Origin: Betaproteobacteria bacterium
GTDB lineage: Bacteria > Pseudomonadota > Gammaproteobacteria > Burkholderiales > SG8-41
DNA length: 64,000 bases
Reading direction: 5' to 3'
NCBI GenBank assembly: GCA_900299145.1
Contig: OMIN01000142.1
Location: 1 to 64,000, forward strand
Made by a program: the position numbers and the translations under genes. This document shows, one piece after another, positions 455 through 59,225 of the stretch (position 1 is its first letter; each line of letters begins with the position of its first letter). The notes under the pieces were generated by a model. It did not search any database. It saw only the letters and a list, made by a program, of their open reading frames with translations, and was not told the DNA's origin.

Positions 455-1441
455 TTACAATGTCTTGAAATATTCCACCATACGCCGGCGCTGCGCCGCG
501 TCAGGCAGCCGCCCCCGGCCCGCCTGCAAGTTATCCGCCAAATGCGTGACGCGCCGCGTGCCGGGAATCACGCAAGTCACCGCTGGATGGCCCAGCAGGT
601 ATTTCAGGAAAAACTGCGCCCACGAATCACAATCGAAATCGGCGCACCACGGCGGCAGCGGCTTGCCCTTGACGCGGCCAAACAGATTCGCCTGCGCAAA
701 CGGCCGGTTGATGATGACGGCCACACCGGCATCCGCGCACGCTGGCAGCAGGCGCGCCTCAGCCTCGCGCTCCACCATCGAATAGTTGAACTGCACGGTA
801 TCGTAAGTATTTGTTTTTATTAATTTTTCCAGTTCGGCATGTGCGCCTTCGTGGTAGTGCGTGATGCCCATATAGCGAATCTTGCCACTGGCTTTCCAGT
901 CGCGCAGCGTGCGTGTGTGCACGTCCAGATCGAGCAGGTTATGAATCTGCATCAAATCCATGCGAGCGGTGCGCATGAGCCGCAGCGACTGTTCCATCTG
1001 CCGCATGCCCGCCTGCTGGCCACTGGTCCAGACCTTGGTGGCGAAAAAATACTTTTCGCGATTTCCAAGCTCATGCGTAAGGTCACCGACCACGCGTTCG
1101 GCCTCGCCGTACATCGGTGAGGAATCCAGCACCATGCCGCCGGCCGCCGCGAAATCCAGCAGCACCTGCTTCAATTCGGTGCGCTCGGCGGCATGGGTGG
1201 CTTGCGGGCCAACGTCAAAGGTTTGATAGGTGCCGATGCCGATCACCGGCAGCGCATCAGCGCCCTTCGCCTTCGGGATGGGACGGCGGATGAGCGGTCC
1301 GGGCGGGGTTGCGGATTGCGATTGGGTGTTCGTGGCTGGCATGGTCATGGCAAGAGCAGAACCGCCGAGCGCATAGAGCGCCTGGCGGCGGTTGATTGAA
1401 AAACGCGCGCCAAGGTTTGCGCGGCGGCGGCCAAAAGTCAT
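455..1441 (-). CDS. Aldo/keto reductase with Tat-like signal
   Basis: INRRQALYALGG signal, VIGIGTYQTFDVG, LDSSPMYGEAERVVG, DLMQIHNL, VIPGTRRVTHLADN; start placed at MTFGRRR. Confidence 0.85.
   Translation of the reverse strand: MTFGRRRANLGARFSINRRQALYALGGSALAMTMPATNTQSQSATPPGPLIRRPIPKAKGADALPVIGIGTYQTFDVGPQATHAAERTELKQVLLDFAAAGGMVLDSSPMYGEAERVVGDLTHELGNREKYFFATKVWTSGQQAGMRQMEQSLRLMRTARMDLMQIHNLLDLDVHTRTLRDWKASGKIRYMGITHYHEGAHAELEKLIKTNTYDTVQFNYSMVEREAEARLLPACADAGVAVIINRPFAQANLFGRVKGKPLPPWCADFDCDSWAQFFLKYLLGHPAVTCVIPGTRRVTHLADNLQAGRGRLPDAAQRRRMVEYFKTL
804..828 (+). repeat. Dispersed AT-rich motif copy (inside AKR CDS)
   Basis: TAAGTATTTGTTTTTATTAATTTTT; exact core AASTATYTGTTTT. Confidence 0.9.
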
Positions 1442-3059: not shown

Positions 3060-5264
3060 ATGCGCTGGCCGGGATTTATCACACTGGGCCGCCTTGCCAC
3101 GCTGGCGGCGGTGATCGCCGGCTTTTTGCTCTACCGCTTCGAGCCGCTGCCGGTGCAGGTGATGCGCAATGCCGTGTTCGACCAGTATCAGCGCTGGCAG
3201 CCGCGCGCCTACGAAGACATGGGTGTTCGCATCGTCGATATCGACGACGAAAGTCTGAAGCGCATTGGCCAGTGGCCGTGGCCGCGCACACAGGTGGCCG
3301 ATCTTATCCGCAAGCTGCAGGACGCTGGGGCGGCCGCCATCGGCTTTGACATGATGTTTGCGGAGCCAGACCGCACGTCACCTCAAGCCATGGCAACGCA
3401 GTGGAAACTCTCAGGCGACACGCTCCACAACGTGCTGCGCCTGCCCGACCACGATCAGGTAATGGCCGAGGCAATACGCGGCGGACGCGTGGTGCTGGGC
3501 TTTGCCGGCAAGCGTGACGGCGAAAAAACCCGGCAGCCAGCCAAGCCGTCACGTGAAGTCTATTCCGGACCGCCCGCACTGCCGTACCTCAACGCATTTA
3601 CCGGCGCGGACGTGCCGCTGGCGCTGCTGGAGCAAGCCGCCGCCGGTGTCGGCGCGTTCACCTTTTTCGCCCAGAATGACGGCGACAGCGTGGTGCGGCG
3701 GGTGCCAATGCTGATGCGGCTGTGTGATCCGGCCTTGGGCGGCACATCACCGCAGGCGCGCATTGCCGCGTGTGAAGCCGAACCGCTCGGCGTGGTAGCG
3801 CCATCGCTGTCCGCGGAACTCCTGCGCGTCAGCCGCAGACAGCGCAATTTTCACGTCACCACCTCGGCGCAGCCGGGCTTGGGGCTGGAAAACGTGCGCG
3901 TGGCCAATGTCACGGTGCCGGTTACGCCGCATGGCGAAGTGTGGGTGCATTACACGCGCCCGGTGGCGGAACGTTACATCCCTGCGTGGCGCGTGCTCGG
4001 CGGCCAGTACCCGCCGGGCAGTCTTAACGATCACATCGTGTTGATTGGCACGTCGGCGCTGGGCCTGCGCGATTTGCGCTCCAACCCGCTGGGCGCGATC
4101 ATGCCCGGCGTCGAAGCGCATGCGCAGGTGCTGGAACAAATGCGCGCCGGCCAGTATCTCGCCCGCGCGGCGAATGCGCACACCCTCGAAGCGCTCGTTA
4201 TCATCATTGGCGGCCTCATCATTGGCGTGGTGGCGCTAACAACCCGCGCGCTGGTGTCAGCATCGCTCACCGCTATTGTGCTCGCTGGCATAGCGCTCGC
4301 CGCCTGGCTGGCCTTCACGCGCGAAGGGTTGCTGCTTGATCCGCTCACGCCGGGCCTCGCGCTGCTAATTACGTTTCTGGTGGGTAGCGTGGTACGGCAC
4401 ATGAACAGCGAACGCGAGCAGCGCTGGGTGCGCGACGCGTTCTCGCGTTATGTGTCGCCGAACCGCGTGGAACATCTGGTCAATAATCCCGGCCAGCTTG
4501 AGCTCGGCGGGCGGCGACAAACGTGCAGTTTTGTGTTCACCGATCTGGAGGATTTCACCGGCCTGATGGAGAAAATGGATCCGGGCGATGCGGTCGCGCT
4601 TCTCAATGCGTATCTTGACCGCATGGTTGCCATCGCTTTTGCCAGCGGCGGAACGCTCGACCGCATTGTCGGCGACGCGGTGGCGATCATGTTTTCCGCG
4701 CCGGTAGCGCAGCCCGACCATCAGGCGCGCGCCTACCAGTGCGCGCTCGATATGCACGCCTTCGCCAGCCAGTACAGCGCCGATCTTGCCGCCAGGGGTA
4801 TCGCCTTCGGTAAAACGCGCATCGGCGTACACACCGGCGAAGTCATTGTCGGCAACTTCGGCGGCACCACCATGTTCGACTACCGCGCGCTCGGCGATCC
4901 GGTAAATACCGCCGCGCGGCTGGAAGGCGCAAACAAATATCTCGGCACCACGGTGTGCGTGTCGGAGGCAACACTCGCGGGCGTTGCCAACGCGCTGACG
5001 CGCCCGATCGGGCGTCTGGTGGTGAAAGGCAAAACGCAGGCGCTGGTTGTGCACGAGCCGCTGGCGGCGGTGCAGCCCTCGACAACAGTGCGCGATAGCA
5101 CCTACGACGCGGCGTTTGAATTGCTGCGGCAAGGTTCGCCGCAAGCACTCGCCGCGTTCGAACAATTGGCGCGCGAGCGGCCCGGCGATACACTGGTGGC
5201 GTTTCATCTCGCAAGGCTTACGGCGGGCGCCACGGACGATCAGATCCGGCTGGACGAGAAGTAA
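3060..5264 (+). CDS. CHASE2 domain-containing class III adenylate/guanylate cyclase
   Basis: RIVDIDDESLKRIGQWPWPRTQ...IGFDMMFAEPDR (CHASE2), TM segments, C-terminal FVFTDLEDFTGLMEKMDP...IGVHTGEVIVGNFGGTTMFDYRALGDPVNTAARLE (cyclase); start at MRWPGF. Confidence 0.9.
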   Translation: MRWPGFITLGRLATLAAVIAGFLLYRFEPLPVQVMRNAVFDQYQRWQPRAYEDMGVRIVDIDDESLKRIGQWPWPRTQVADLIRKLQDAGAAAIGFDMMFAEPDRTSPQAMATQWKLSGDTLHNVLRLPDHDQVMAEAIRGGRVVLGFAGKRDGEKTRQPAKPSREVYSGPPALPYLNAFTGADVPLALLEQAAAGVGAFTFFAQNDGDSVVRRVPMLMRLCDPALGGTSPQARIAACEAEPLGVVAPSLSAELLRVSRRQRNFHVTTSAQPGLGLENVRVANVTVPVTPHGEVWVHYTRPVAERYIPAWRVLGGQYPPGSLNDHIVLIGTSALGLRDLRSNPLGAIMPGVEAHAQVLEQMRAGQYLARAANAHTLEALVIIIGGLIIGVVALTTRALVSASLTAIVLAGIALAAWLAFTREGLLLDPLTPGLALLITFLVGSVVRHMNSEREQRWVRDAFSRYVSPNRVEHLVNNPGQLELGGRRQTCSFVFTDLEDFTGLMEKMDPGDAVALLNAYLDRMVAIAFASGGTLDRIVGDAVAIMFSAPVAQPDHQARAYQCALDMHAFASQYSADLAARGIAFGKTRIGVHTGEVIVGNFGGTTMFDYRALGDPVNTAARLEGANKYLGTTVCVSEATLAGVANALTRPIGRLVVKGKTQALVVHEPLAAVQPSTTVRDSTYDAAFELLRQGSPQALAAFEQLARERPGDTLVAFHLARLTAGATDDQIRLDEK

Positions 5265-5266
5265 TT

Positions 5267-5292
5267 TAACTCTCTGTTTTTAAAAGGAATTT
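5267..5292 (+). repeat. Degenerate copy of dispersed AT-rich motif
   Basis: TAACTCTCTGTTTTTAAAAGGAATTT upstream of OmpA gene. Confidence 0.5.
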
Positions 5293-6505: not shown

Positions 6506-6532
6506 AAATTAATTAATAAAAACAAATACTTA
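6506..6532 (-). repeat. Dispersed AT-rich motif copy
   Basis: Reverse complement TAAGTATTTGTTTTTATTAATTAATTT; 3 bp before ATG 6536. Confidence 0.9.
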
Positions 6533-6535
6533 AAA

Positions 6536-7723
6536 ATGTCTATCGGAAAATCTGCCAACGGCCCGTGGATTGATCACATTCCCGGCAACGGCTTGTGGTC
6601 CAACGCCATCCTCGTCACCAAGGGCATGGCGCCGTACGGCGCGGTGGCACTGGGCGAAATCGATCAGGTTTGTGAAAAGCTGCGCGCTCGGCAAAGCGAA
6701 CCACACGCCTGGTGGGAGGAATGGAGCGCCATGGGCAGGCGTCTGCACGCACGCGCCGATGCCCTGGAAGCCGCCGGTCATCGCATGAGCGCGGGTAACT
6801 ACTATTTGCGCGCGGGCATGTATTACTTCACCGCCGAGCGCTTTATTTACCCCGGCCCCGACAAACGCGAAATGGGCCGCATCGCCATCGACTGTCAGAC
6901 GAAAGGCATCCTGCGCCGCCATCCGAACGTGGAGCGCGTGGAAGTACCGTTCGAGGGTGCGCACACAAGTAAGTCGCTGCCGGCATTTTTCATGAAAGCG
7001 CTGAATACGAACGCCGAGCGCGCACCCACCATCGTCGTTTTTAACGGCATGGACAATTGCAAGGAAATGAGCGTACTGTTCGCGGGCCTCGAATTCGCCG
7101 CGCGCGGCTGGAACACGCTCGCCATCGACGGGCCGGGGCAAGGTGAATCGCTGCGTTTGCGCGAACTCTACGCGCGCCATGACTATGAAGTCGCGGGTAC
7201 GGCGGCGTACGATTACGTCGCCGCACGCGCGGATGTCGATGCCGGCAGGGTTTTCGTCATGGGTTACAGCTTCGGCGGCTACTACGCCGCTCGCGTTGCA
7301 GCGTTCGAGAAACGCTACCGGGGCGGCATCGCCATGAGCGCGCTGCACTGGGACTTGCACGCGTGGCAGCAAGACATCAAACGCCGGCAGGACGCCGACC
7401 CCAAGGGCACGCCGCAGTCCGCGTTTCACTTTCGCTGGATAATGGGCTGCATTGACGATGCCGGAGCCGCTCTCGAAAAAGCAAAAAAATTCTCACTTGT
7501 GGGCGTCGCCGAAAAAATCACCTGCCCTTTCATCATCGTCCACGCGGGCGAAGACACCGTAGTGCCGGTCGCCAACGCGCCCAAACTGTTTGAAGCCATT
7601 GCGTCCAAAGACAAACATCTGAAAATTCTCAACGCGGACGACGGCGGGCATTACCATGCGCAGGCGGATAACCGGCAGGTGGGAATCGATTACATCGCGG
7701 ATTGGGTTGAGGAGCACTTGTAA
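6536..7723 (+). CDS. Alpha/beta hydrolase (FrsA/DUF1100-like)
   Basis: GMDNCKEMSVLFAGLEFAARGWNTLAIDGPGQGES, nucleophile elbow GYSFGGYYA. Confidence 0.85.
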   Translation: MSIGKSANGPWIDHIPGNGLWSNAILVTKGMAPYGAVALGEIDQVCEKLRARQSEPHAWWEEWSAMGRRLHARADALEAAGHRMSAGNYYLRAGMYYFTAERFIYPGPDKREMGRIAIDCQTKGILRRHPNVERVEVPFEGAHTSKSLPAFFMKALNTNAERAPTIVVFNGMDNCKEMSVLFAGLEFAARGWNTLAIDGPGQGESLRLRELYARHDYEVAGTAAYDYVAARADVDAGRVFVMGYSFGGYYAARVAAFEKRYRGGIAMSALHWDLHAWQQDIKRRQDADPKGTPQSAFHFRWIMGCIDDAGAALEKAKKFSLVGVAEKITCPFIIVHAGEDTVVPVANAPKLFEAIASKDKHLKILNADDGGHYHAQADNRQVGIDYIADWVEEHL

Positions 7724-9087: not shown

Positions 9088-10249
9088 TCACCCCAACCGC
9101 GGATCCGCTGTAGATTCCCCCTTGGGCTTCACCGGCGGATGCGCCTTCAGCACGTCTTCGTTCAGTGTAATTCCCAGCCCCGGCGCCTGCGGCACGGCGT
9201 AGCAACCGTCCACCAGCTTGGGATGAGCGCCGGTCATGATTTCATCGTAAAAACTGCCTTCGCTTTGCCGTTCCAGAATCAGGAAGTTCGGCACCAGCGA
9301 ACATACGTGCAGACTGCCCATGTTGCACACCGGGCCGGTGGGGTTATGCGGCGAGAACTTCACGCCAAATTCGTGCGCGCGATTCGCCACCGCCAGCATG
9401 CCGGTGTAGCCACCGGTGTATTTGATGTCCGGCATCACCACGTCGAGCAACTTCGCGCGCAGCAGTGGCTCAAAGCCCAGCACGCCGATCTGGCGCTCAC
9501 CGCCGGCAATCAGCACGCCCATATCGGCAGCGGCACGGCGCACGCGATCCAGCACCGCATGATGCTCGGCACGCTCCGAAGTCAGACACTCCCCCCAGAA
9601 CAGTTTCGCGGGTGCGAGGTCGCGCAGGAGTTGCAGAGCCGTCGGCTCATCAAAGCGCCAGTGGCAATCCACCAGTACGCCAGCGTCCGGCCCCACGGCG
9701 TCGCGCACCGCCAGTATGCAGTCGAGCGCGTGACGATATTTTTTTCTGACCTCGGGGTCGTTCATGTCGGCCCAGAACACCCCATCAAATGGCGCGAGCT
9801 TGAACGCGGTGTAGCCCTGCGCCTGGCGATCGCGTGCCAGGGCAGCGAAACCCGCTGGAGAACGGTCCGTCGCCGCACGGTTGATGTTGCCGTAGACGCG
9901 TATCCGGTCGCGCAGCGGCGCACCGAAGAGGCGATGCAACGGCACACCTGCCTCGCGCGCCTTGATGTCCATCAGCGCCATTTCCGCCGCGCTCAATATC
10001 GAATTCCACACCAGCCCGCCGACCGCGTGCGGATACACCGTCAACTGCGGCAACGCCGCATCGATGGCAAGGCCGGTGATGTTCGCCGCGAGGCGCTTTA
10101 CGTTGAGGATTTGATTTTCCTCCCAGCCGCCGGAGAGCGACGCCTCGCCCCAGCCAGTCAGCCCGTCATCGGTCTGGATTTTCAGAAAGAACCAGTTGGT
10201 TTTCTCCGAAACATTCACCGCATAAGGCGTAAGTGTTTGTATTTTCATG
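9088..10249 (-). CDS. Mandelate racemase/muconate lactonizing enzyme (enolase superfamily)
   Basis: MKIQTLTPYAVNVSEKTNWFFLKIQTDDGLTGWGEAS...LDCILAVRDAVGPDAGVLVDCHWRFD...PDIKYTGG. Confidence 0.9.
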
Positions 10250-10256
10250 GTTTTTT
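10230..10256 (+). repeat. Degenerate copy of dispersed AT-rich motif, overlapping start of minus-strand gene
   Basis: TAAGTGTTTGTATTTTCATGGTTTTTT. Confidence 0.4.
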
Positions 10257-10831: not shown

Positions 10832-13066
10832 ATGCAAACCACACTCAACACCAACCGCCGCCAGTTCCTCAAACGCACTGGCGTTATCGTATCAACCTTT
10901 ACGCTCGCCGGCCCCGCGGCTGTGGTTCCGCAAACCGTGGCGCCACTGCCCGGCGGCCTCAACGCCAACCGCATGCTCGACGGCTGGGTACGCATCAACA
11001 GCAACAATACCGTCACCGTCTTCACCGGCAAATGCGAAATCGGCCAGGGCATTTTGACGGCGCTGACGCAAATTGCCGCCGATGAACTGGATGTCACTTA
11101 CGAGCGCGTTGAGATCATTTCCGCCGATACCGCGCGCACGCCCAATGAGGGCATGACGGTCGGCAGCTTCTCGGTGGAACAAAGTGGTGCGGCACTGCGC
11201 TTTGCCTGCGCCGAAGCGCGCGCGATGCTGTTGGCCGCCGCATCGAAAAAGCTCAATGTGGCGATGGAAAAACTTTCCGTGAACGATGGCACCATCAGCG
11301 CATCGCCGGCGCGCATGACCTACTGGGACATCGCGAAAGAGGTCAATTTCAAACGGGAAGCCACCGCCACCTTTAAACCCAAGCCCGCCGCACAGCACAA
11401 AATCATCGGCAAACCGGTGCCGCGCCGCGATTTTCCAGCCAAGGTCTCTGGCGGCGCGGCGTTCGTGCAGGACTTGCGCCTGCCCGGCATGGTGTTCGGC
11501 CGCGTCGTACGCCCCCCGTCGTATCGCGCCACGTTGCAAAGCGTCGACGAAGCGGCGGTGAAAGCCCTCCCCGGCGTGATCACCGTGGCGCGTGACGGCA
11601 ATTTTCTGGCAGTGGCCGCCGAGCGCGAGGAACAGGCCATCAAGGCGGCCCAGGCGCTGCGTGCGTCGGCGAGGTGGACGGAAGCCCCGGATCTGCCGCC
11701 AAGCGGTGGCGCGTTCTTCGATCACATGCGGAAAATGCCCGCGCGCGACATGGTGATTAAAGCCACGTCGCCCGCCACCGCAAGCGGTGGCAAAGTCACT
11801 TCGGTGGAAGCGGAATACACGCGCCCCTACCAGTCGCACGGCTCCATCGGCCCTTCGTGTGCCGTGGCGCAGATGAAAGACGGCAAGCTGCAGGTCTGGA
11901 CACACTCGCAAGGCGTGTTCCCGCTAAGGGCCGAGCTTTCCAGGGCATTGCGCATGAAGCCCGCCGACATTGTCTGCACACACGCCGAGGGTTCGGGTTG
12001 TTACGGGCACAATGGCGCGGATGATGTTGCGTTTGACGCGGCATTGGTAGCGCGCTCACTCAATGGCCGCCCCGTGAAATTGCAATGGATGCGCGAAGAC
12101 GAATTCGCATGGGAACCGTACGGCTCAGCCATGCTACTCAAAATGCACGCATTGCTTGACGAATCAAAGCAGATTGTCAGTTGGCAGCACGAAATCTGGA
12201 GCCACTCGCACAATATGCGCCCGACCAGCAACCCCGATGGCATCGCCTTTCTCGGCAGCTGGCATCTGACCGACCCGGCACGCCGCCCCACACCCGTGAA
12301 CGGACCGCAACCCAACGGCGCCGCTGACCGCAACGCGGTGCCGCTCTATGACTTTCCCCGCCAGAATGTGCTGTTGCATTTCATCACCGACATGCCGGTA
12401 CGTGTTTCGGCACTGCGCGGGCTGGGCGCTTACGCGAACGTATTCGCGCTGGAATCGTTCATGGACGAGATCGCGCTGGCCGCCGGTGAAGACCCGGTGG
12501 CGTTTCGCCTGAAGCACATGAAAAATCCGCGCGCACGCGCGGTGATCGAAATGGCCGCGGAAAAAGCGGGATGGAAACCCAACGCCAAAAACTACGGCGC
12601 AGCCCCCAACATCGGTAGAGGCATTGCCTTCGCGCAATACAAGAATCTTGCGTGTTACTGCGCGGTCGTCGCCGATGTCACTGTAGATCGCAACGGCATG
12701 GCAAAAGTTACGCGGGCTGTCGCCGCCGTCGATGCCGGGTTGATCATCAACCCCGATGGCGTGATCAATCAGATCGAAGGCGGCATAATTCAGTCGGCAA
12801 GCTGGACGTTGAAAGAGCAGGTGAAATTCGACCGCCAGCGCATCACCACGCGGTCATGGGCCGACTATCCGATCTTCACCTTTAACGATGTGCCGCAAGT
12901 GGAAGTGCACCTCATTAACCGACCCGACGAGCGCCCGCTTGGCGCTGGCGAAGGTTCGCAAGGCCCAACTGTGGCGGCCATCGCCAATGCCATTGCCAAC
13001 GCCACCGGCAAGCGCCCTCGTGATTTGCCTTTCACACCTGAAAAGATCCGCGCCTTGATCGTTTAA
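10832..13066 (+). CDS. Molybdopterin cytosine dinucleotide-binding aldehyde oxidase/isoquinoline 1-oxidoreductase beta-like subunit
   Basis: Tat-like NRRQFLKRTGVIVSTF; GKCEIGQGILTALTQIAADELD; HAEGSGCYGHNGADD; PLGAGEGSQGP. Confidence 0.92.
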   Translation: MQTTLNTNRRQFLKRTGVIVSTFTLAGPAAVVPQTVAPLPGGLNANRMLDGWVRINSNNTVTVFTGKCEIGQGILTALTQIAADELDVTYERVEIISADTARTPNEGMTVGSFSVEQSGAALRFACAEARAMLLAAASKKLNVAMEKLSVNDGTISASPARMTYWDIAKEVNFKREATATFKPKPAAQHKIIGKPVPRRDFPAKVSGGAAFVQDLRLPGMVFGRVVRPPSYRATLQSVDEAAVKALPGVITVARDGNFLAVAAEREEQAIKAAQALRASARWTEAPDLPPSGGAFFDHMRKMPARDMVIKATSPATASGGKVTSVEAEYTRPYQSHGSIGPSCAVAQMKDGKLQVWTHSQGVFPLRAELSRALRMKPADIVCTHAEGSGCYGHNGADDVAFDAALVARSLNGRPVKLQWMREDEFAWEPYGSAMLLKMHALLDESKQIVSWQHEIWSHSHNMRPTSNPDGIAFLGSWHLTDPARRPTPVNGPQPNGAADRNAVPLYDFPRQNVLLHFITDMPVRVSALRGLGAYANVFALESFMDEIALAAGEDPVAFRLKHMKNPRARAVIEMAAEKAGWKPNAKNYGAAPNIGRGIAFAQYKNLACYCAVVADVTVDRNGMAKVTRAVAAVDAGLIINPDGVINQIEGGIIQSASWTLKEQVKFDRQRITTRSWADYPIFTFNDVPQVEVHLINRPDERPLGAGEGSQGPTVAAIANAIANATGKRPRDLPFTPEKIRALIV

Positions 13067-13093
13067 TAAAATATGAATAAAAACAGATACTTA
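13065..13093 (-). repeat. Dispersed AT-rich motif copy overlapping cytochrome c start codon
   Basis: Reverse complement TAAGTATCTGTTTTTATTCATATTTTATT. Confidence 0.9.
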
Positions 13094-13468
13094 CGAAATA
13101 TCCCCCACAGCAACGCCGCACGCGCCTCGCTGCTGGCGCTAACGCTTGCCTGCGTTGCCGTACCGCTGTCACAAGCGCAATCCGGCAAGGCCTCCGCGCG
13201 CGAACGCGCCGGCGCGACGGTGTTCGGCGAGCATTGCTCCGTTTGCCACGGCGTACGGCTGTTGAAGCAGGACGCCGCGTACGATCTACGTGCCGTTATT
13301 GCCGACATGAGCGAAGAGCAATTCCTGCGCGGCGCAAAAACGCGGCGCGGCGCCATGCCGTCGTTCGCCGGGCAACTCAAGGACGAGCAACTCACCGACG
13401 TGTACGCCTACATCAGGCGTGGTCACTCGCCCGATCTGGACGACGTGCGCATGGAGAGCAACCACTGA
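13073..13468 (+). CDS. c-type cytochrome
   Basis: Signal peptide, EHCSVCHG (CXXCH), GGAMPSFAGQLKDEQLTDVYAYI-like end. Confidence 0.85.
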   Translation: MNKNRYLRNIPHSNAARASLLALTLACVAVPLSQAQSGKASARERAGATVFGEHCSVCHGVRLLKQDAAYDLRAVIADMSEEQFLRGAKTRRGAMPSFAGQLKDEQLTDVYAYIRRGHSPDLDDVRMESNH

Positions 13469-14947: not shown

Positions 14948-14974
14948 AAAAAATTTAAATAAAACAAATACTTA
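14948..14974 (-). repeat. Dispersed AT-rich motif copy overlapping SDR stop codon
   Basis: Reverse complement TAAGTATTTGTTTTATTTAAATTTTTT; the TAA is the stop. Confidence 0.9.
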
Positions 14975-15745
14975 CAGCACCCCTGACACACCACCATCCA
15001 CATTGATGCAGCAGCCGGTGACATAACTCGCCGCATCCGAAGCCAGAAACGCAATCACGTTAGCGACTTCTTCGGACTCGCCCATGCGGCCCATCGGGAT
15101 GGATTTGCTGTTGCGCGCGTAGTGTTCATCGACGGTCAAATTGTTACGCTTGGCGCCGCGCTCCTGCCCCGCAGATTTGATTTTGCCCACGGCCACGGCG
15201 TTGACGAGTATGTTGTCCGCCGCGTATTCCTTCGACAGCCCCTTGGTCAGCGCGAGACCCGCCGCGCGGCTGACTGTTGTCGGAAACATTGCCGCGCCCG
15301 GCTGTTTGGCGCCGACCATGTTGAGATTGATAATGCGACCGCCACCGACTTTTTTCATGTGTGGCACGGCGGCGCGCGTGGTGCGAATTTGCGCATAAAC
15401 CTTGATCGCGATGTCGTTGTCCCATACGGCTTCGTCGACTTTCTCGAACGCCACCTGCCCTGATCCACCGGCATTGTTGACCACCACATCAAGCCGGCCA
15501 AAGTGTTTGGCAACGGCGTCGATAAAGTTTTCCATCTCGCCCTTTTTGCTGGCGTCTGCGGCCAACGCCAGCACGTCGCCACCCTGTTTGCGCATGTCGT
15601 CGGCGAGTTTGTCGAGCACATCCTTACGCCGCGCGCAAAACGCCACTTTCGCGCCTTCGGCCACGAATCGTTGCACGGTGGCGCGGCCGATGCCTTCGCT
15701 GCCACCCGTAACCGCCACCACTTTGCCCTTGAGTCCGAGTTCCAT
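14972..15745 (-). CDS. Short-chain dehydrogenase/reductase
   Basis: VTGGSEGIGRATVQRF, NNAGGSG, S...Y/K-type active-site region, YVTGCCINVDGG. Confidence 0.9.
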   Translation of the reverse strand: MELGLKGKVVAVTGGSEGIGRATVQRFVAEGAKVAFCARRKDVLDKLADDMRKQGGDVLALAADASKKGEMENFIDAVAKHFGRLDVVVNNAGGSGQVAFEKVDEAVWDNDIAIKVYAQIRTTRAAVPHMKKVGGGRIINLNMVGAKQPGAAMFPTTVSRAAGLALTKGLSKEYAADNILVNAVAVGKIKSAGQERGAKRNNLTVDEHYARNSKSIPMGRMGESEEVANVIAFLASDAASYVTGCCINVDGGVSGVL

Positions 15746-18262: not shown

Positions 18263-18289
18263 TAAGCATTTGTTTTAATTGGTATTTTT
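18263..18289 (+). repeat. Dispersed AT-rich motif copy (one core mismatch)
   Basis: TAAGCATTTGTTTTAATTGGTATTTTT upstream of LeuC-like gene. Confidence 0.8.
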
Positions 18290-18312: not shown

Positions 18313-19599
18313 ATGGCGATGACTGCCGTCGAAAAGGTGCTCGCCGCGAAAAGCGGCAAGTCAGCCGTGCGCCCGGGTGACGTGGTGTTTCCTGACCCCG
18401 ATTACGTGATGATTCACGACGGCGTGGTGATGGGCGCCAAGCGTGAGCTCGACGCGCTCGGCATCCACCGGCTCGCAGCACCCGGCAAGGTGATGATGGT
18501 GAGCGACCACGACGTCATCTACGGCAGCGCGCGCGCTGCCGAGCGTGGGGTGTTCAACCGCGCGGCGGCAAAGGCGTGGGGCGTCAAGCAGTTTTACGAC
18601 GTTGGCCGCGGCGGCCACGGGCACATTTTCCCGATGGAATCGGGCCTCTTGCTACCCGGCATGTTTTATTTCGACAACGACCGCCACGCCACCAATGCCG
18701 GTGCGATCGGTGCTTTCGGCTTTCGCATCGGCAGCGAAATCAGCCGCGTGCTCGCTACCGGCACCAACTGGGTGCAGGTGCCGAAATCGGTCAAGGTGAC
18801 GCTTAAAGGAAAATTAAAGCCCGGCGTTTACGCGCGTGACATCGGCTTTCATCTCGCGATGTTGATCAAGCAGAAAATTTTCGACGTCGACATCGATTAC
18901 AAAGTGCTCGAATACGCCGGTGATCTCGATCAATTCAGCCTCGCTGCGCGCACAGCCCTATGCTCCAGCCCCACCGAGATTCAGGCCTATGGCGTGTTCC
19001 TGCCGCCCTCGGAAACCATCCTCGCCCACGCACGCGAACAGGCCACGCGCCCGTTCACACCGGTCTACGCCGATGCTGACGCACACTACGAAGCCGAATT
19101 CACGCTCGACATTTCCCGGCTGGAACCGCAAATCGCGCGGCCCGGCGGTGTGCACAACGCGGTAAATCTGTCCGAAGTTGCCGGCACGCCGGTCAGCCAC
19201 GCCTTTATCGGCTCGTGCGGCTCCGGCATGTGGGACGATCTGATGCAGGCTGCCGCCGTGTTAAAGGGCCGCCGCATTGCCGATGGCGTGCGGCTCTTCA
19301 TCGCGCCCGGCACTGAAGCCTCGACAAAACGCCTTGCGCGCGAGGGCTGGATGCAAACCTTCATCGAAGCCGGGGCAATCCTGCTCCCCGCCGGCTGCGG
19401 CCCGTGCAACGATGCGGTCATCGGCCCCATACATGCCGGCGAAGTGTCGATTTCCACCGCCACCAACAATCCACCGGGGCGCTTCGGCGCGCGCGATGGA
19501 AAACTTTATTTGGGCAGCCCGGCGACGGTAGCGGCATCTGCCGTGACTGGCAGGATTACTGATGCACGCGAGTTTTTTTTGACTGAAATGCGGCAATGA
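18313..19599 (+). CDS. Aconitase/3-isopropylmalate dehydratase large subunit-like (LeuC family)
   Basis: DHDVIYGS, FIGSCGSGMWDDLMQAA, PAGCGPCNDA, STATNNPPGRFG; cluster cysteines present. Confidence 0.85.
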   Translation: MAMTAVEKVLAAKSGKSAVRPGDVVFPDPDYVMIHDGVVMGAKRELDALGIHRLAAPGKVMMVSDHDVIYGSARAAERGVFNRAAAKAWGVKQFYDVGRGGHGHIFPMESGLLLPGMFYFDNDRHATNAGAIGAFGFRIGSEISRVLATGTNWVQVPKSVKVTLKGKLKPGVYARDIGFHLAMLIKQKIFDVDIDYKVLEYAGDLDQFSLAARTALCSSPTEIQAYGVFLPPSETILAHAREQATRPFTPVYADADAHYEAEFTLDISRLEPQIARPGGVHNAVNLSEVAGTPVSHAFIGSCGSGMWDDLMQAAAVLKGRRIADGVRLFIAPGTEASTKRLAREGWMQTFIEAGAILLPAGCGPCNDAVIGPIHAGEVSISTATNNPPGRFGARDGKLYLGSPATVAASAVTGRITDAREFFLTEMRQ

Positions 19600-20336
19600 A
19601 CGCCCGCCGCTGCCTGGTTATCGCCCACCGTGGCGCATCCACTTACGCACCGGAGAATACGTTTGCCGCGTTCGATCTCGCACTCAACATGGGTGTACTG
19701 CATATTGAACTCGACGTACAACAATCCTGCGACGGCCATCTCGTCGTGATCCACGACGATAAAGTAAACCGTACAACCAATGGTGATGGCGAAGTCGCGG
19801 CGCTCACCTTGGGCGAACTGCAATCGCTGGATGCCGGTGCGTGGTTCAACGCGAAATTTGCCGGCGAGCGCATTCCCACGTTTAAAGCACTGCTCGACCG
19901 CTATCGCGGCCGCGCGCACCTGCACGTGGAAATCAAGGGTAAAACCGCCAGACTTTCCGAGCGCACCGTGGATATGATTCGGCAACACGGCTGGGCGAAG
20001 GACGTCACCATGACCTCATTCCAGTTCGACAAAATCGAAGCCTTGCGCGCTTACGCGCCGGAACTGCCCTCGGGCTGGTTGCTGCGCGACATTGACGATA
20101 CGGTGATCCCACGGGCACATGCGCTGGGCCTCACGCAACTGTGCCCCAAGGCCGAAACCGTAACACCTGCACTGGTCGCGCGCTTGCGCGAAGCTGGTTT
20201 CGACGTGCGTGCGTGGGGTGTCGCCAACGAAGAGCTGATGCGGAGGATGGTCAACGCCGGCGTCGACGGCATGACAGTGAATTTTCCAGACAAGCTCACT
20301 GCGCTGCTACGCGAATCGCCAATAAATATTCAATAA
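19596..20336 (+). CDS. Glycerophosphodiester phosphodiesterase
   Basis: IAHRGASTYAPENTFAAFDLALNMGVLHIELDVQ...VVIHDDKVNRTTNGDGEV; overlaps previous stop by ATGA. Confidence 0.92.
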   Translation: MNARRCLVIAHRGASTYAPENTFAAFDLALNMGVLHIELDVQQSCDGHLVVIHDDKVNRTTNGDGEVAALTLGELQSLDAGAWFNAKFAGERIPTFKALLDRYRGRAHLHVEIKGKTARLSERTVDMIRQHGWAKDVTMTSFQFDKIEALRAYAPELPSGWLLRDIDDTVIPRAHALGLTQLCPKAETVTPALVARLREAGFDVRAWGVANEELMRRMVNAGVDGMTVNFPDKLTALLRESPINIQ

Positions 20337-20396
20337 AATCAATTAATTATATCAATACCCCAAAACCGCACGCGTCACTGTTGTCCGTGTCCCGCC

Positions 20397-23270: not shown

Positions 23271-23297
23271 TAACTATCTGTTTTTATTGATATTTTA
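23271..23297 (+). repeat. Dispersed AT-rich motif copy
   Basis: TAACTATCTGTTTTTATTGATATTTTA just beyond the kinase stop. Confidence 0.92.
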
Positions 23298-27597: not shown

Positions 27598-27623
27598 TAA
27601 CTATCTGTTTTTAAGAACTTTTT
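27598..27623 (+). repeat. Dispersed AT-rich motif copy directly abutting ATG
   Basis: TAACTATCTGTTTTTAAGAACTTTTT, then ATG at 27624. Confidence 0.92.
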
Positions 27624-31657: not shown

Positions 31658-31683
31658 TAAGTATCTGTTTTAATTGATTTTTT
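31658..31683 (+). repeat. Dispersed AT-rich motif copy
   Basis: TAAGTATCTGTTTTAATTGATTTTTT. Confidence 0.92.
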
Positions 31684-34855: not shown

Positions 34856-34883
34856 TAACTATCTGTTTTAAAACAATATTTTT
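34856..34883 (+). repeat. Dispersed AT-rich motif copy
   Basis: TAACTATCTGTTTTAAAACAATATTTTT. Confidence 0.92.
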
Positions 34884-41165: not shown

Positions 41166-41190
41166 TAAGTATTTGATTTTAGTTAATTTT
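41166..41190 (+). repeat. Dispersed AT-rich motif copy (one core mismatch)
   Basis: TAAGTATTTGATTTTAGTTAATTTT overlapping the minus-strand stop. Confidence 0.8.
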
Positions 41191-44145: not shown

Positions 44146-44173
44146 CAACTATCTGTTTTTATTGAACATTTTT
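44146..44173 (+). repeat. Dispersed AT-rich motif copy
   Basis: CAACTATCTGTTTTTATTGAACATTTTT. Confidence 0.92.
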
Positions 44174-45561: not shown

Positions 45562-46467
45562 ATGCGCCACAGCCTAGTTGCTATAAGTATCTGTTTTTAC
45601 AGCGTTATTTCACATGCCGCCACACTCACTGTCGACTGCGACAGCGGCGGCAAAATCATGGAGGCACTGTCCAAAGCGCGGCCCGGCGACACGGTGCTGA
45701 CCAGCGGCACGTGTAACGAGCATGTCAACATCGCGCCAGAGCAAGTGCGCATCACGCTCGACGGACAGAAAAAAACCACCCTCAAGCACCCCGGCGGCGA
45801 GCAGACCTCACCGCATGCGCTCTACAACCGCGGCAAGGAAATCACCATCAAGAATTTCACTGTGACCGGCGGGCTGGATGGCATCCACCTCTCCGGCGCG
45901 GCATCGGCGGTGCTCGATGGCAATGTAGTGGTGGACAACAAGGGGCGCGGCATCCACATAGACAAGGGCAGCATCGCGCGCGTCCTCAACAACCGCATCG
46001 AAGGCAATGGCGTCATGGGCATCAGCGTCACCGGCACGTCTTATGCCTACATCGGCGTGTTCATCCCGCGCATTCCGGCGCTTTCACCCAACACCATACG
46101 CAACAACGCCGGGCCGGGCATACAGATTGAGCGTTCGTCCGGCGCATGGGTCGTCGGCAACACCATCAGCGGCAACAAACACGGCGGCATCGTGCTCACC
46201 CGCAACGCCCACGCCGATGTGATGGGCAACACCATCAGTGCCAATGGCGGCGATGGAGTCAACTTCAGTTTCGGCAGCGGCGTGAATTTCGACAGCGAGC
46301 CGCGCAAGGATGGGCCGAATCAAACCGCGACGGGGCAGCTCAATGCGGGCGCGGGATTGCGCTGCATGACCGGTGGATTTGCCGATGGCCCGTTGGGCAC
46401 GCTGGCGGGTGAGAAGGGTGGAAAGATCGTGGACGGTGGGTGCGTAGATCGCGTGAGTACAAAATAG
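45562..46467 (+). CDS. Right-handed parallel beta-helix (NosD/pectate-lyase-like) secreted protein
   Basis: Signal peptide; repeats GIHLSGAASAVLDGNVVVDNKGRGIHIDKGSIARVLNNRIEGNGVMGISV, GNTISGNKHGGIVLTRNAHADVMGNTISANGGDGV. Confidence 0.8.
   Translation: MRHSLVAISICFYSVISHAATLTVDCDSGGKIMEALSKARPGDTVLTSGTCNEHVNIAPEQVRITLDGQKKTTLKHPGGEQTSPHALYNRGKEITIKNFTVTGGLDGIHLSGAASAVLDGNVVVDNKGRGIHIDKGSIARVLNNRIEGNGVMGISVTGTSYAYIGVFIPRIPALSPNTIRNNAGPGIQIERSSGAWVVGNTISGNKHGGIVLTRNAHADVMGNTISANGGDGVNFSFGSGVNFDSEPRKDGPNQTATGQLNAGAGLRCMTGGFADGPLGTLAGEKGGKIVDGGCVDRVSTK
45584..45610 (+). repeat. Dispersed AT-rich motif copy inside signal-peptide coding region
   Basis: TAAGTATCTGTTTTTACAGCGTTATTT. Confidence 0.85.
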
Positions 46468-48632: not shown

Positions 48633-49526
48633 ATGGAAATCATTCAACTCCATCCTGAAATCGGCGCTGAAATTCGCGGCGTCAGCATGGCCGATGTCGC
48701 CAATGACGACAATGCCTATCGCGCGGTGCGCGCGGCATTCGAGGAACATTCAGTGCTGGTGTTCCGCAACCAGCCGGTGGAAGACAAAATTCAGGTCGGT
48801 TTTTCAGCGAAATTCGGCCCGCTCGAAACCGCCAAGGTGGCATCCCTTGGCGAAGGCACGCCGTTTTCGATTCTCACCAATGTCGACCCGGTAACGCGCG
48901 AACTGGTGCCGCCCACGCACAAGGAAGCTCTACGCGCCAAGGCCAACCAACTGTGGCACACCGACAGCTCGTTTCGTGAAACGCCGGCGCTGGCATCCGT
49001 GTTGTCGGCGCGAACCATTCCCGGCGTGGGTGGCGAGACCGAATTCGTGTCGCAGCGCGCTTCGTGGAACCGCCTGTCGGCGTCGCTGCGCGCGAAATTG
49101 TCAAACTGCTATGCGTGGCACAGCTACGCACACTCAAGGGGCAAAATTGATCCGGGGCTCGCCTCACAGCGTGAGCAAAATGCGCTACCGCCCGCCTGCT
49201 GGCGCATGCGCTGGCGCAACCCGGTGAATGGGCGCGACGCGCTCTACATCGCCTCCCACACTGGCGGCATCGAAGGCATGGAAGACAAGGAAGCGCTGAC
49301 GTTGATCGACGAACTCATGGCGATTTCCACCGCGCCCGGCCACAGCTACGAGCATGTATGGCGCAATGGCGATTTTGTGATGTGGGACAACCGCGCCACC
49401 ATGCATCGGGGCCGGCCATGGCCGATGGATAAGGTGCGTTACATGATACGCACCACGATTGCGGCATCTGATGCCGATGGGGTTTCAGAGATGCGGCCAC
49501 CGCATCACCCACGCAAGGCGGCATAG
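48633..49526 (+). CDS. TauD/TfdA family Fe(II)/2-oxoglutarate-dependent dioxygenase
   Basis: VFRNQPVEDKIQVGFSAKFGPLE, LWHTDSSF (HxD), FVMWDNRATMHRGRPW. Confidence 0.93.
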   Translation: MEIIQLHPEIGAEIRGVSMADVANDDNAYRAVRAAFEEHSVLVFRNQPVEDKIQVGFSAKFGPLETAKVASLGEGTPFSILTNVDPVTRELVPPTHKEALRAKANQLWHTDSSFRETPALASVLSARTIPGVGGETEFVSQRASWNRLSASLRAKLSNCYAWHSYAHSRGKIDPGLASQREQNALPPACWRMRWRNPVNGRDALYIASHTGGIEGMEDKEALTLIDELMAISTAPGHSYEHVWRNGDFVMWDNRATMHRGRPWPMDKVRYMIRTTIAASDADGVSEMRPPHHPRKAA

Positions 49527-49542: not shown

Positions 49543-49565
49543 AATCCTATTAAAACAAATAGTTA
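49543..49565 (-). repeat. Dispersed AT-rich motif copy
   Basis: Reverse complement TAACTATTTGTTTTAATAGGATT. Confidence 0.88.
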
Positions 49566-52139: not shown

Positions 52140-53117
52140 TCATTCCACCCGCGCCCCGCTATCCGCCACCACGCGCGCCCACTTCGTAGCTTCCACCTTC
52201 ATGAAGTCGTAGAACTTTTCGGGCGAATCCTGAAACGCTACCTCCTGCCCCGCCGCACGCATGCTTTTCTGGAAATCCGGGTTCTTCAGCACGCGCAGCA
52301 AATCTCCGTGAAGACGCGTTTGGACATCGCGCGCGATGCCCTTGGGGCCGGCTACGCCAAACCAGCTCACCATTTCATAGCCCGGCACGCCGGCTTCGGC
52401 GATGGTGGGCACATCGGCAAGTTCCGGCGACCGGTTGCCGCTGCTCACACCCAACGCACGCAGTTTTCCGGCTTTGATGAACGGCAGCATACCCGCGATA
52501 CCGGGAAAGCCCACCGTCACCTGCCCTGCCAGCAAATCAGCGGTGGCAGGCCCGCTGCCGCGATACGGCACATGCGTCATCTGAATGCCGGCCATTTTGA
52601 TGAACAACGCGCCGGTAAGGTGCTGCGTGCTGCCGTTGCCCGACGACACAAAATCAATCTGGTTCGGTTTCGCCTTGGCCAGCGTGATCAGTTCCTTCAC
52701 CGATTTCACCGGCAGCGACGGATGCACCACCAGCACGTTGGGCGCGTTGGTAATCTGCGTTACCGGCGTGTAATCATTGAGCGCGTCGTACGCGAGCCTC
52801 TTATAGAGCGCCGCACTGACGAAATGCGTGTTGCTGATCATGAACAGGTTGTAACCATCGGGCGCCGCCTTGGCCGCCGCTTCCGCGCCGATAGTCGAGC
52901 CCGCACCGGGCCGGTTTTCGATCACTACTTGCTGCTTAAAAATATCCGACAAGCGTTGGCCGAGGATGCGCAGCGGCACGTCCGCCGCGCCACCCGCCGA
53001 AAATGGAATGATCACACGCACCGCGCGCGAAGGGTAGGCTTGAGCCTGCACAAGCAGCGGCACGCTGGCTATAACCATCCCGGCAATTGACGCATAACTA
53101 TTTGTTTTTATTGACAT
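52140..53117 (-). CDS. Bug/TctC family substrate-binding protein
   Basis: YPSRAVRVIIPFSAGGAADVPLRILG...KQQVVIENRPGAGSTIGAEAAAKAAPDGYN. Confidence 0.93.
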   Translation of the reverse strand: MSIKTNSYASIAGMVIASVPLLVQAQAYPSRAVRVIIPFSAGGAADVPLRILGQRLSDIFKQQVVIENRPGAGSTIGAEAAAKAAPDGYNLFMISNTHFVSAALYKRLAYDALNDYTPVTQITNAPNVLVVHPSLPVKSVKELITLAKAKPNQIDFVSSGNGSTQHLTGALFIKMAGIQMTHVPYRGSGPATADLLAGQVTVGFPGIAGMLPFIKAGKLRALGVSSGNRSPELADVPTIAEAGVPGYEMVSWFGVAGPKGIARDVQTRLHGDLLRVLKNPDFQKSMRAAGQEVAFQDSPEKFYDFMKVEATKWARVVADSGARVE

Positions 53118-56393: not shown

Positions 56394-56420
56394 CAAGTAT
56401 TTGTTTTTAAACAATTTTTT
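56394..56420 (+). repeat. Dispersed AT-rich motif copy
   Basis: CAAGTATTTGTTTTTAAACAATTTTTT upstream of clpB. Confidence 0.9.
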
Positions 56421-59198: not shown

Positions 59199-59225
59199 TA
59201 AGTATTTGTTTTTATTTATTTTTTT
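59199..59225 (+). repeat. Dispersed AT-rich motif copy
   Basis: TAAGTATTTGTTTTTATTTATTTTTTT. Confidence 0.92.

Follow-up and report, generated by a model that had tools for sequence, protein, structure and literature searches.

The window, a 64-kb stretch of DNA analysed as a whole, contains three genes whose starts coincide with copies of one A-rich motif: a cytochrome c gene, a Bug (TctC) solute-binding protein gene and, in diverged form, an enolase-superfamily gene (Table 1). The preliminary description had placed the motif over the ATG codons of the first two genes, and we found the sequences there as quoted (13073 and, on the minus strand, 53117); as it had also stated, both starts lack a clear Shine-Dalgarno sequence. 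In the cytochrome c gene, an in-frame TAA lies at 13067-13069, and downstream of 13073 there is no in-frame ATG, GTG or TTG before the signal-peptide core, which leaves the ATG at 13073 as the one start that can be used. For this gene, the sequence supports the proposal that the ATG and the first ~8 codons come from the motif, and the orthologue in genome G007 begins alike (MNKNIYLR). For the Bug protein the proposal is probable. Translation from the ATG at 53117 reads MSIKTNSYASIAGMVIASVPLLVQAQA, which has a basic n-region and looks like a normal signal peptide, and translation from M14 would lose the n-region lysine; judged from the sequence, M1 probably gives the more normal signal peptide, and a start at M14 is possible in principle. 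The orientation of the motif had been described as antisense to these genes, which depends on the strand on which the motif is written; its A-rich strand is the sense strand of both. The enolase-superfamily gene, suggested earlier as a diverged third case, does carry a weaker copy, whose score exceeds the level at which a reversed control yields none.

Table 1. Motif copies in the 64-kb window and the genes that begin within them. Positions are those of the window.
Feature	Position	Strand	Description
Motif core	804..819	-	within called minus-strand gene 455-1441 (IKTNTY)
Motif core	5267..5282	-	2 nt past the stop of 3060-5264
Motif core	6517..6532	+	3 nt ahead of the ATG of 6536-7723
Diverged motif copy at enolase-superfamily gene start	10229..10255	-	core 10230-10245; ATG 10247-10249; 3 mismatches; 26.5 bits; Pfam MR_MLE
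Motif copy with cytochrome c start codon	13068..13094	+	core 13078-13093; ATG 13073-13075; position-matrix score 52.0 bits
Cytochrome c gene	13073..13468	+	Pfam PF13442/PF00034; opening codons ATGAATAAAAACAGATACTTACGA are the motif; sole available start
Motif core	14959..14974	+	holds the stop codon of 14972-15745 (-)
Motif core	18263..18278	-	intergenic
Motif core	20334..20349	+	at the stop of 19596-20336; 46.3 bits
Motif core	23271..23286	-	intergenic
Motif core	27598..27613	-	intergenic
Motif core	31658..31673	-	intergenic; degenerate in G008; other aligned orthologues without a copy
Motif core	34856..34871	-	gap with an intact or partial copy in most genomes of the genus, none in G009
Motif core	41166..41181	-	intergenic
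Motif core	44146..44161	-	intergenic, divergent gap
Motif core	45584..45599	-	antisense, inside the signal peptide of 45562-46467
Motif core	49550..49565	+	23 nt past the stop of 48633-49526
Bug (TctC) solute-binding protein	52140..53117	-	Pfam PF03401; MSIKTNSYA begins within the motif
Motif copy with Bug/TctC start codon	53094..53120	-	core 53095-53110; ATG 53115-53117; 45.6 bits
Motif core	56394..56409	-	intergenic
Motif core	59199..59214	-	convergent gap

Alignment of 80 copies, followed by a position matrix built from 450 kb of the genome, revealed an AT-rich element of ~30 bp with a consensus of about aAAAAAtattcAATAAAAACARATASTTACgaaa. It consists of a CARATASTTA core and two A-tracts ~12 bp apart. 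The window holds 19 matches at three or fewer mismatches against 0.11 expected, and the 5.5-Mb genome under study (G000) holds 957 copies at no more than one mismatch against none in the reversed control; the motif is thus not a product of chance. The copies are balanced between the strands (482/475 at the same threshold). None of the papers searched contained AAAAACAAATACTTA, and nothing relevant on uptake sequences in this group was found by keyword.

Other genes of G000 open in the same manner as the cytochrome c gene (MNKNKYLQ..., MNKNKHLH..., MHKNKHLQ...). A gene of the 3-hydroxyisobutyrate-dehydrogenase type (L037:14605-15528) begins MNKNKYLQ, with the motif directly ahead of the usual VGVIGLGIMGG. 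That some genes begin with MNKNKYL or a similar peptide and have no clear Shine-Dalgarno sequence would suit a translation-start aid, that is, an A-rich leader or start region that replaces the Shine-Dalgarno sequence. The cytochrome c orthologues speak against such an aid, as does the fact that the majority of copies lie away from gene starts. The motif site is kept in six of these orthologues, the start codons of which differ: the gene starts inside the motif in G000 and G007, the intact motif of G005 lacks an ATG and is followed by a start further downstream, G001 uses a different reading frame through the motif, and in G002 and G013 the motif is degenerate. As the site stays constant while the start and the frame change, the target of selection or drive appears to be the DNA, and neither the peptide nor the start. 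Orthologues that keep the motif and start elsewhere led us to reject a translation-initiation element, which we regard as extremely improbable; comparison of the sequences does not support a role of the motif in translation initiation, and the start codons within it are an incidental side effect rather than its purpose.

The placement of the motif was classified for 248 copies in 846 kb of G000 with a home-made gene caller, so that gene edges are approximate. By this classification, 135 copies were intergenic, 49 overlapped a stop codon and 25 a start codon (about a tenth, fewer than at stop codons; 4 of the 25 also overlap a stop), and 15 lay within the first 30 residues and 28 inside genes. 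The gene-internal share was thus ~11%, although ~88% of the sequence is coding, and the copies are concentrated in permissive locations. Within signal peptides, a sense copy forms the basic n-region (MNKNKYL) and an antisense copy the hydrophobic core (NYLFLLIFF). An intergenic position near gene starts might suggest a promoter or a regulator site for the adjoining genes. However, among gaps of at least 35 bp, a copy was present in 39% of the co-directional, 43% of the convergent and 25% of the divergent gaps. This distribution is not promoter-like, since the motif is depleted in divergent gaps and found in convergent ones; moreover, its orientation is mixed, and copies also occur inside genes and over stop codons. 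The gap classes and the orientation led us to reject a promoter or regulator, a reading that we consider very unlikely.

The origin of the motif was most clearly resolved in PurD, the one site on which the evidence for substitution is based; UvrA was left out because the length of its loop varies. The motif, or most of it, was present at the PurD site in G000, G018, G001, G002, G003 and G012 (for example, TCAATAAAAACAATATYTTAC, VNKNNILLT), and motif-free genera had unrelated GC-rich codons at the same site, such as GTCAAGACCGAAGGCGTCGCGCTG. The net length was unchanged in all 36 genomes with a match, which indicates that the motif at this site was formed by substitution and not by insertion. 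This result contradicts a small mobile element of the REP or MITE type, inserting at gene boundaries and importing start codons. Such an element would account for the many copies, their intergenic position and their absence from some relatives; nevertheless, the consensus has no terminal inverted repeats, transposition would not space copies evenly, and on the evidence of PurD we rejected the mobile element, which is highly improbable.

The copies were also evenly spaced. The coefficient of variation of the spacing was 0.57 in G000 (n=233) and 0.52 in G019 (n=57), compared with 0.82-1.30 for the means of the null models; under each of three such models, none of 1000 simulations was as even as the observed spacing. 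Copies lay ~3.3 kb apart in G000 and ~7.3 kb apart in G019. Some contigs showed a strand skew (chi2 29.7, 15 df), and contig C149, which has a strong GC skew (0.059), carried 18 copies on each strand. A polar site of the Chi or KOPS type was considered and rejected, as the strand bias first seen in a few contigs grew weaker once further data were included.

Among the relatives, which are known here from MAGs, copies at no more than one mismatch numbered 250-542 across five further sampled genomes of the genus of G000, 499 in genus g6, 81-206 in g7 species and 13-34 in g8; five other genera had 0-13 copies. The two strands carried balanced numbers, and the reversed control gave 0-2 in motif-bearing genomes. 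The same 16-bp core with its upstream A-tract was found in three genera, that of G000 and two others. Several public MAGs of this group (L072, L078 and others) carry the name Bordetella parapertussis, apparently in error. Other repeats were seen as well: dispersed repeats of the CACAGATTAACACAGATT type occur in intergenic gaps of several genomes of the genus (L297, L298, L294, L304, L305), G012 has a ~30-bp repeat whose many near-identical copies lie on both strands (L407:341-370), and in 140 kb of G019 no 11-mers are more over-represented than repeats of the AACGGGTGAACGGGTGAAC type (L468-L474).

Within the genus, G009 was the only genome counted that is nearly motif-free (10 copies at no more than one mismatch, 4 in the reversed control), and no substitute over-represented motif was seen in 135 kb of it. 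We found that G000 has ComEC, DprA and a pilin of the ComP_DUS family, and that G009 lacks comEC and dprA. Both losses are clean deletions with the neighbours kept, each on one contig; at the topB-dprA-LysM locus dprA alone is gone. ComEC was present in all six other members of the genus tested, and DprA was looked for in three genomes. In a tree of UvrA and PurD, G009 lies between g7 and g6 plus g1, all of which bear the motif, with UFBoot values of 89 at both nodes. G009 is otherwise deviant, having a GC content of 45.6% versus 60%, a size of 4.0 Mb and a long branch, and because of its GC content and branch length the link to the loss of competence is one correlated case and not proof. The ComEC match of the motif-rich G002 contains one in-frame TAG, which reflects either a fault of the assembly or a recent break. 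In motif-free genera, ComEC and a ComP-like pilin are found too, so the machinery does not predict the motif. The ComP-like pilin was considered as a receptor; it is found in most of the family, and since the matches are different pilins, no conclusion was drawn from it.

The joint loss of the motif with comEC and dprA in G009 also bears on a further alternative, in which the motif is the site of a chromosome-organising (nucleoid-associated) protein and selection keeps its spacing regular. The phased A-tracts, which suggest bent DNA, the even spacing and a consensus common to several genera are consistent with such a site. The joint loss is not predicted by it, however, and G000 and G019 differ in copy density by a factor of more than two; we consider this alternative unlikely.

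Taken together, the analysis points to the motif as a putative, previously undescribed DNA-uptake sequence of this uncultured Burkholderiales lineage that would mark DNA of the bacterium's own kind and work like the DUS of Neisseria and the USS of Haemophilus, a reading to which we assign a probability of about 0.8. We infer preferential uptake, a receptor and a drive process. A candidate receptor of the transformation machinery would prefer fragments that carry the ~30-bp element; such fragments would be taken up and recombined more often, and point mutations that create the motif would thereby be favored. Copies would build up to about one per recombination-sized stretch and would last only where they do little harm, namely in intergenic gaps, stop codons and signal peptides. 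At the 5' end of a gene, a small change in the flank from atTCAA to ATGAA would give ATG AAT AAA AAC ARA TAC TTA (MNKNK/RYL), and the gene may then start inside the motif. It is also quite likely that this is a third, independently evolved uptake-sequence system, longer and AT-rich, whose copies have reshaped gene boundaries by providing the start codons, stop codons and signal-peptide segments of many genes. If so, an abundant tag with a different sequence would be present in a third lineage, where models of drive and mate choice could be tested on independent ground; in uncultured bacteria, active natural transformation could be recognised from the motif in the genome, and a tag at the DNA level would be rewriting protein N-termini.

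To our knowledge, Neisseriaceae and Pasteurellaceae are the only groups in which abundant uptake sequences are established. The DUS of Neisseriaceae is GCCGTCTGAA, with ComP as its receptor, and both DUS and USS are common inside genes. The low gene-internal share of the present motif differs from both; an AT-rich 30-mer is costly in coding DNA of 60% GC. Published uptake sequences evolve via point mutation rather than insertion, with coding DNA containing fewer of them than expected (PMC7811141), and the neisserial DUS occupies permissive positions of the core genome at a spacing that matches conversion fragments (PMC2397512). The features of these systems that we found here are over-representation, balanced strands, origin by point mutation and permissive placement, together with the machinery in G000 and, in a single case of loss, near absence of the motif where comEC and dprA are deleted.

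Upon comparison with the Neisseriaceae DUS, the motif is similar in its copy number (hundreds to thousands), its permissive positions within the core genome, its lineage-wide consensus and the transformation genes alongside (PMC2397512, PMC3630211, PMC6370729). It is not the Neisseria DUS proper: its sequence is unrelated, it is ~30 bp long rather than 10-12, AT-rich and rarer inside genes, and the ComP_DUS-family pilin occurs in motif-free genera too. The Pasteurellaceae USS, with a 9-bp core and flanking AT-tracts, shares with the motif the layout of a core and AT-tracts, the origin by point mutation and the under-representation in coding sequence (PMC7811141), whereas the core of the motif is unrelated and has no GCGG centre, and its spacing is ~3.3 kb (G000) or 7.3 kb (G019) versus ~1 kb. 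Like REP and MITE repeats, the motif has many copies and is intergenic; unlike them, it arose in conserved coding DNA through substitution, without an indel, and is not palindromic. Chi and KOPS are likewise frequent short chromosomal motifs, from which the present motif differs in having no consistent replication polarity, as seen in the 18/18 division of copies on C149.
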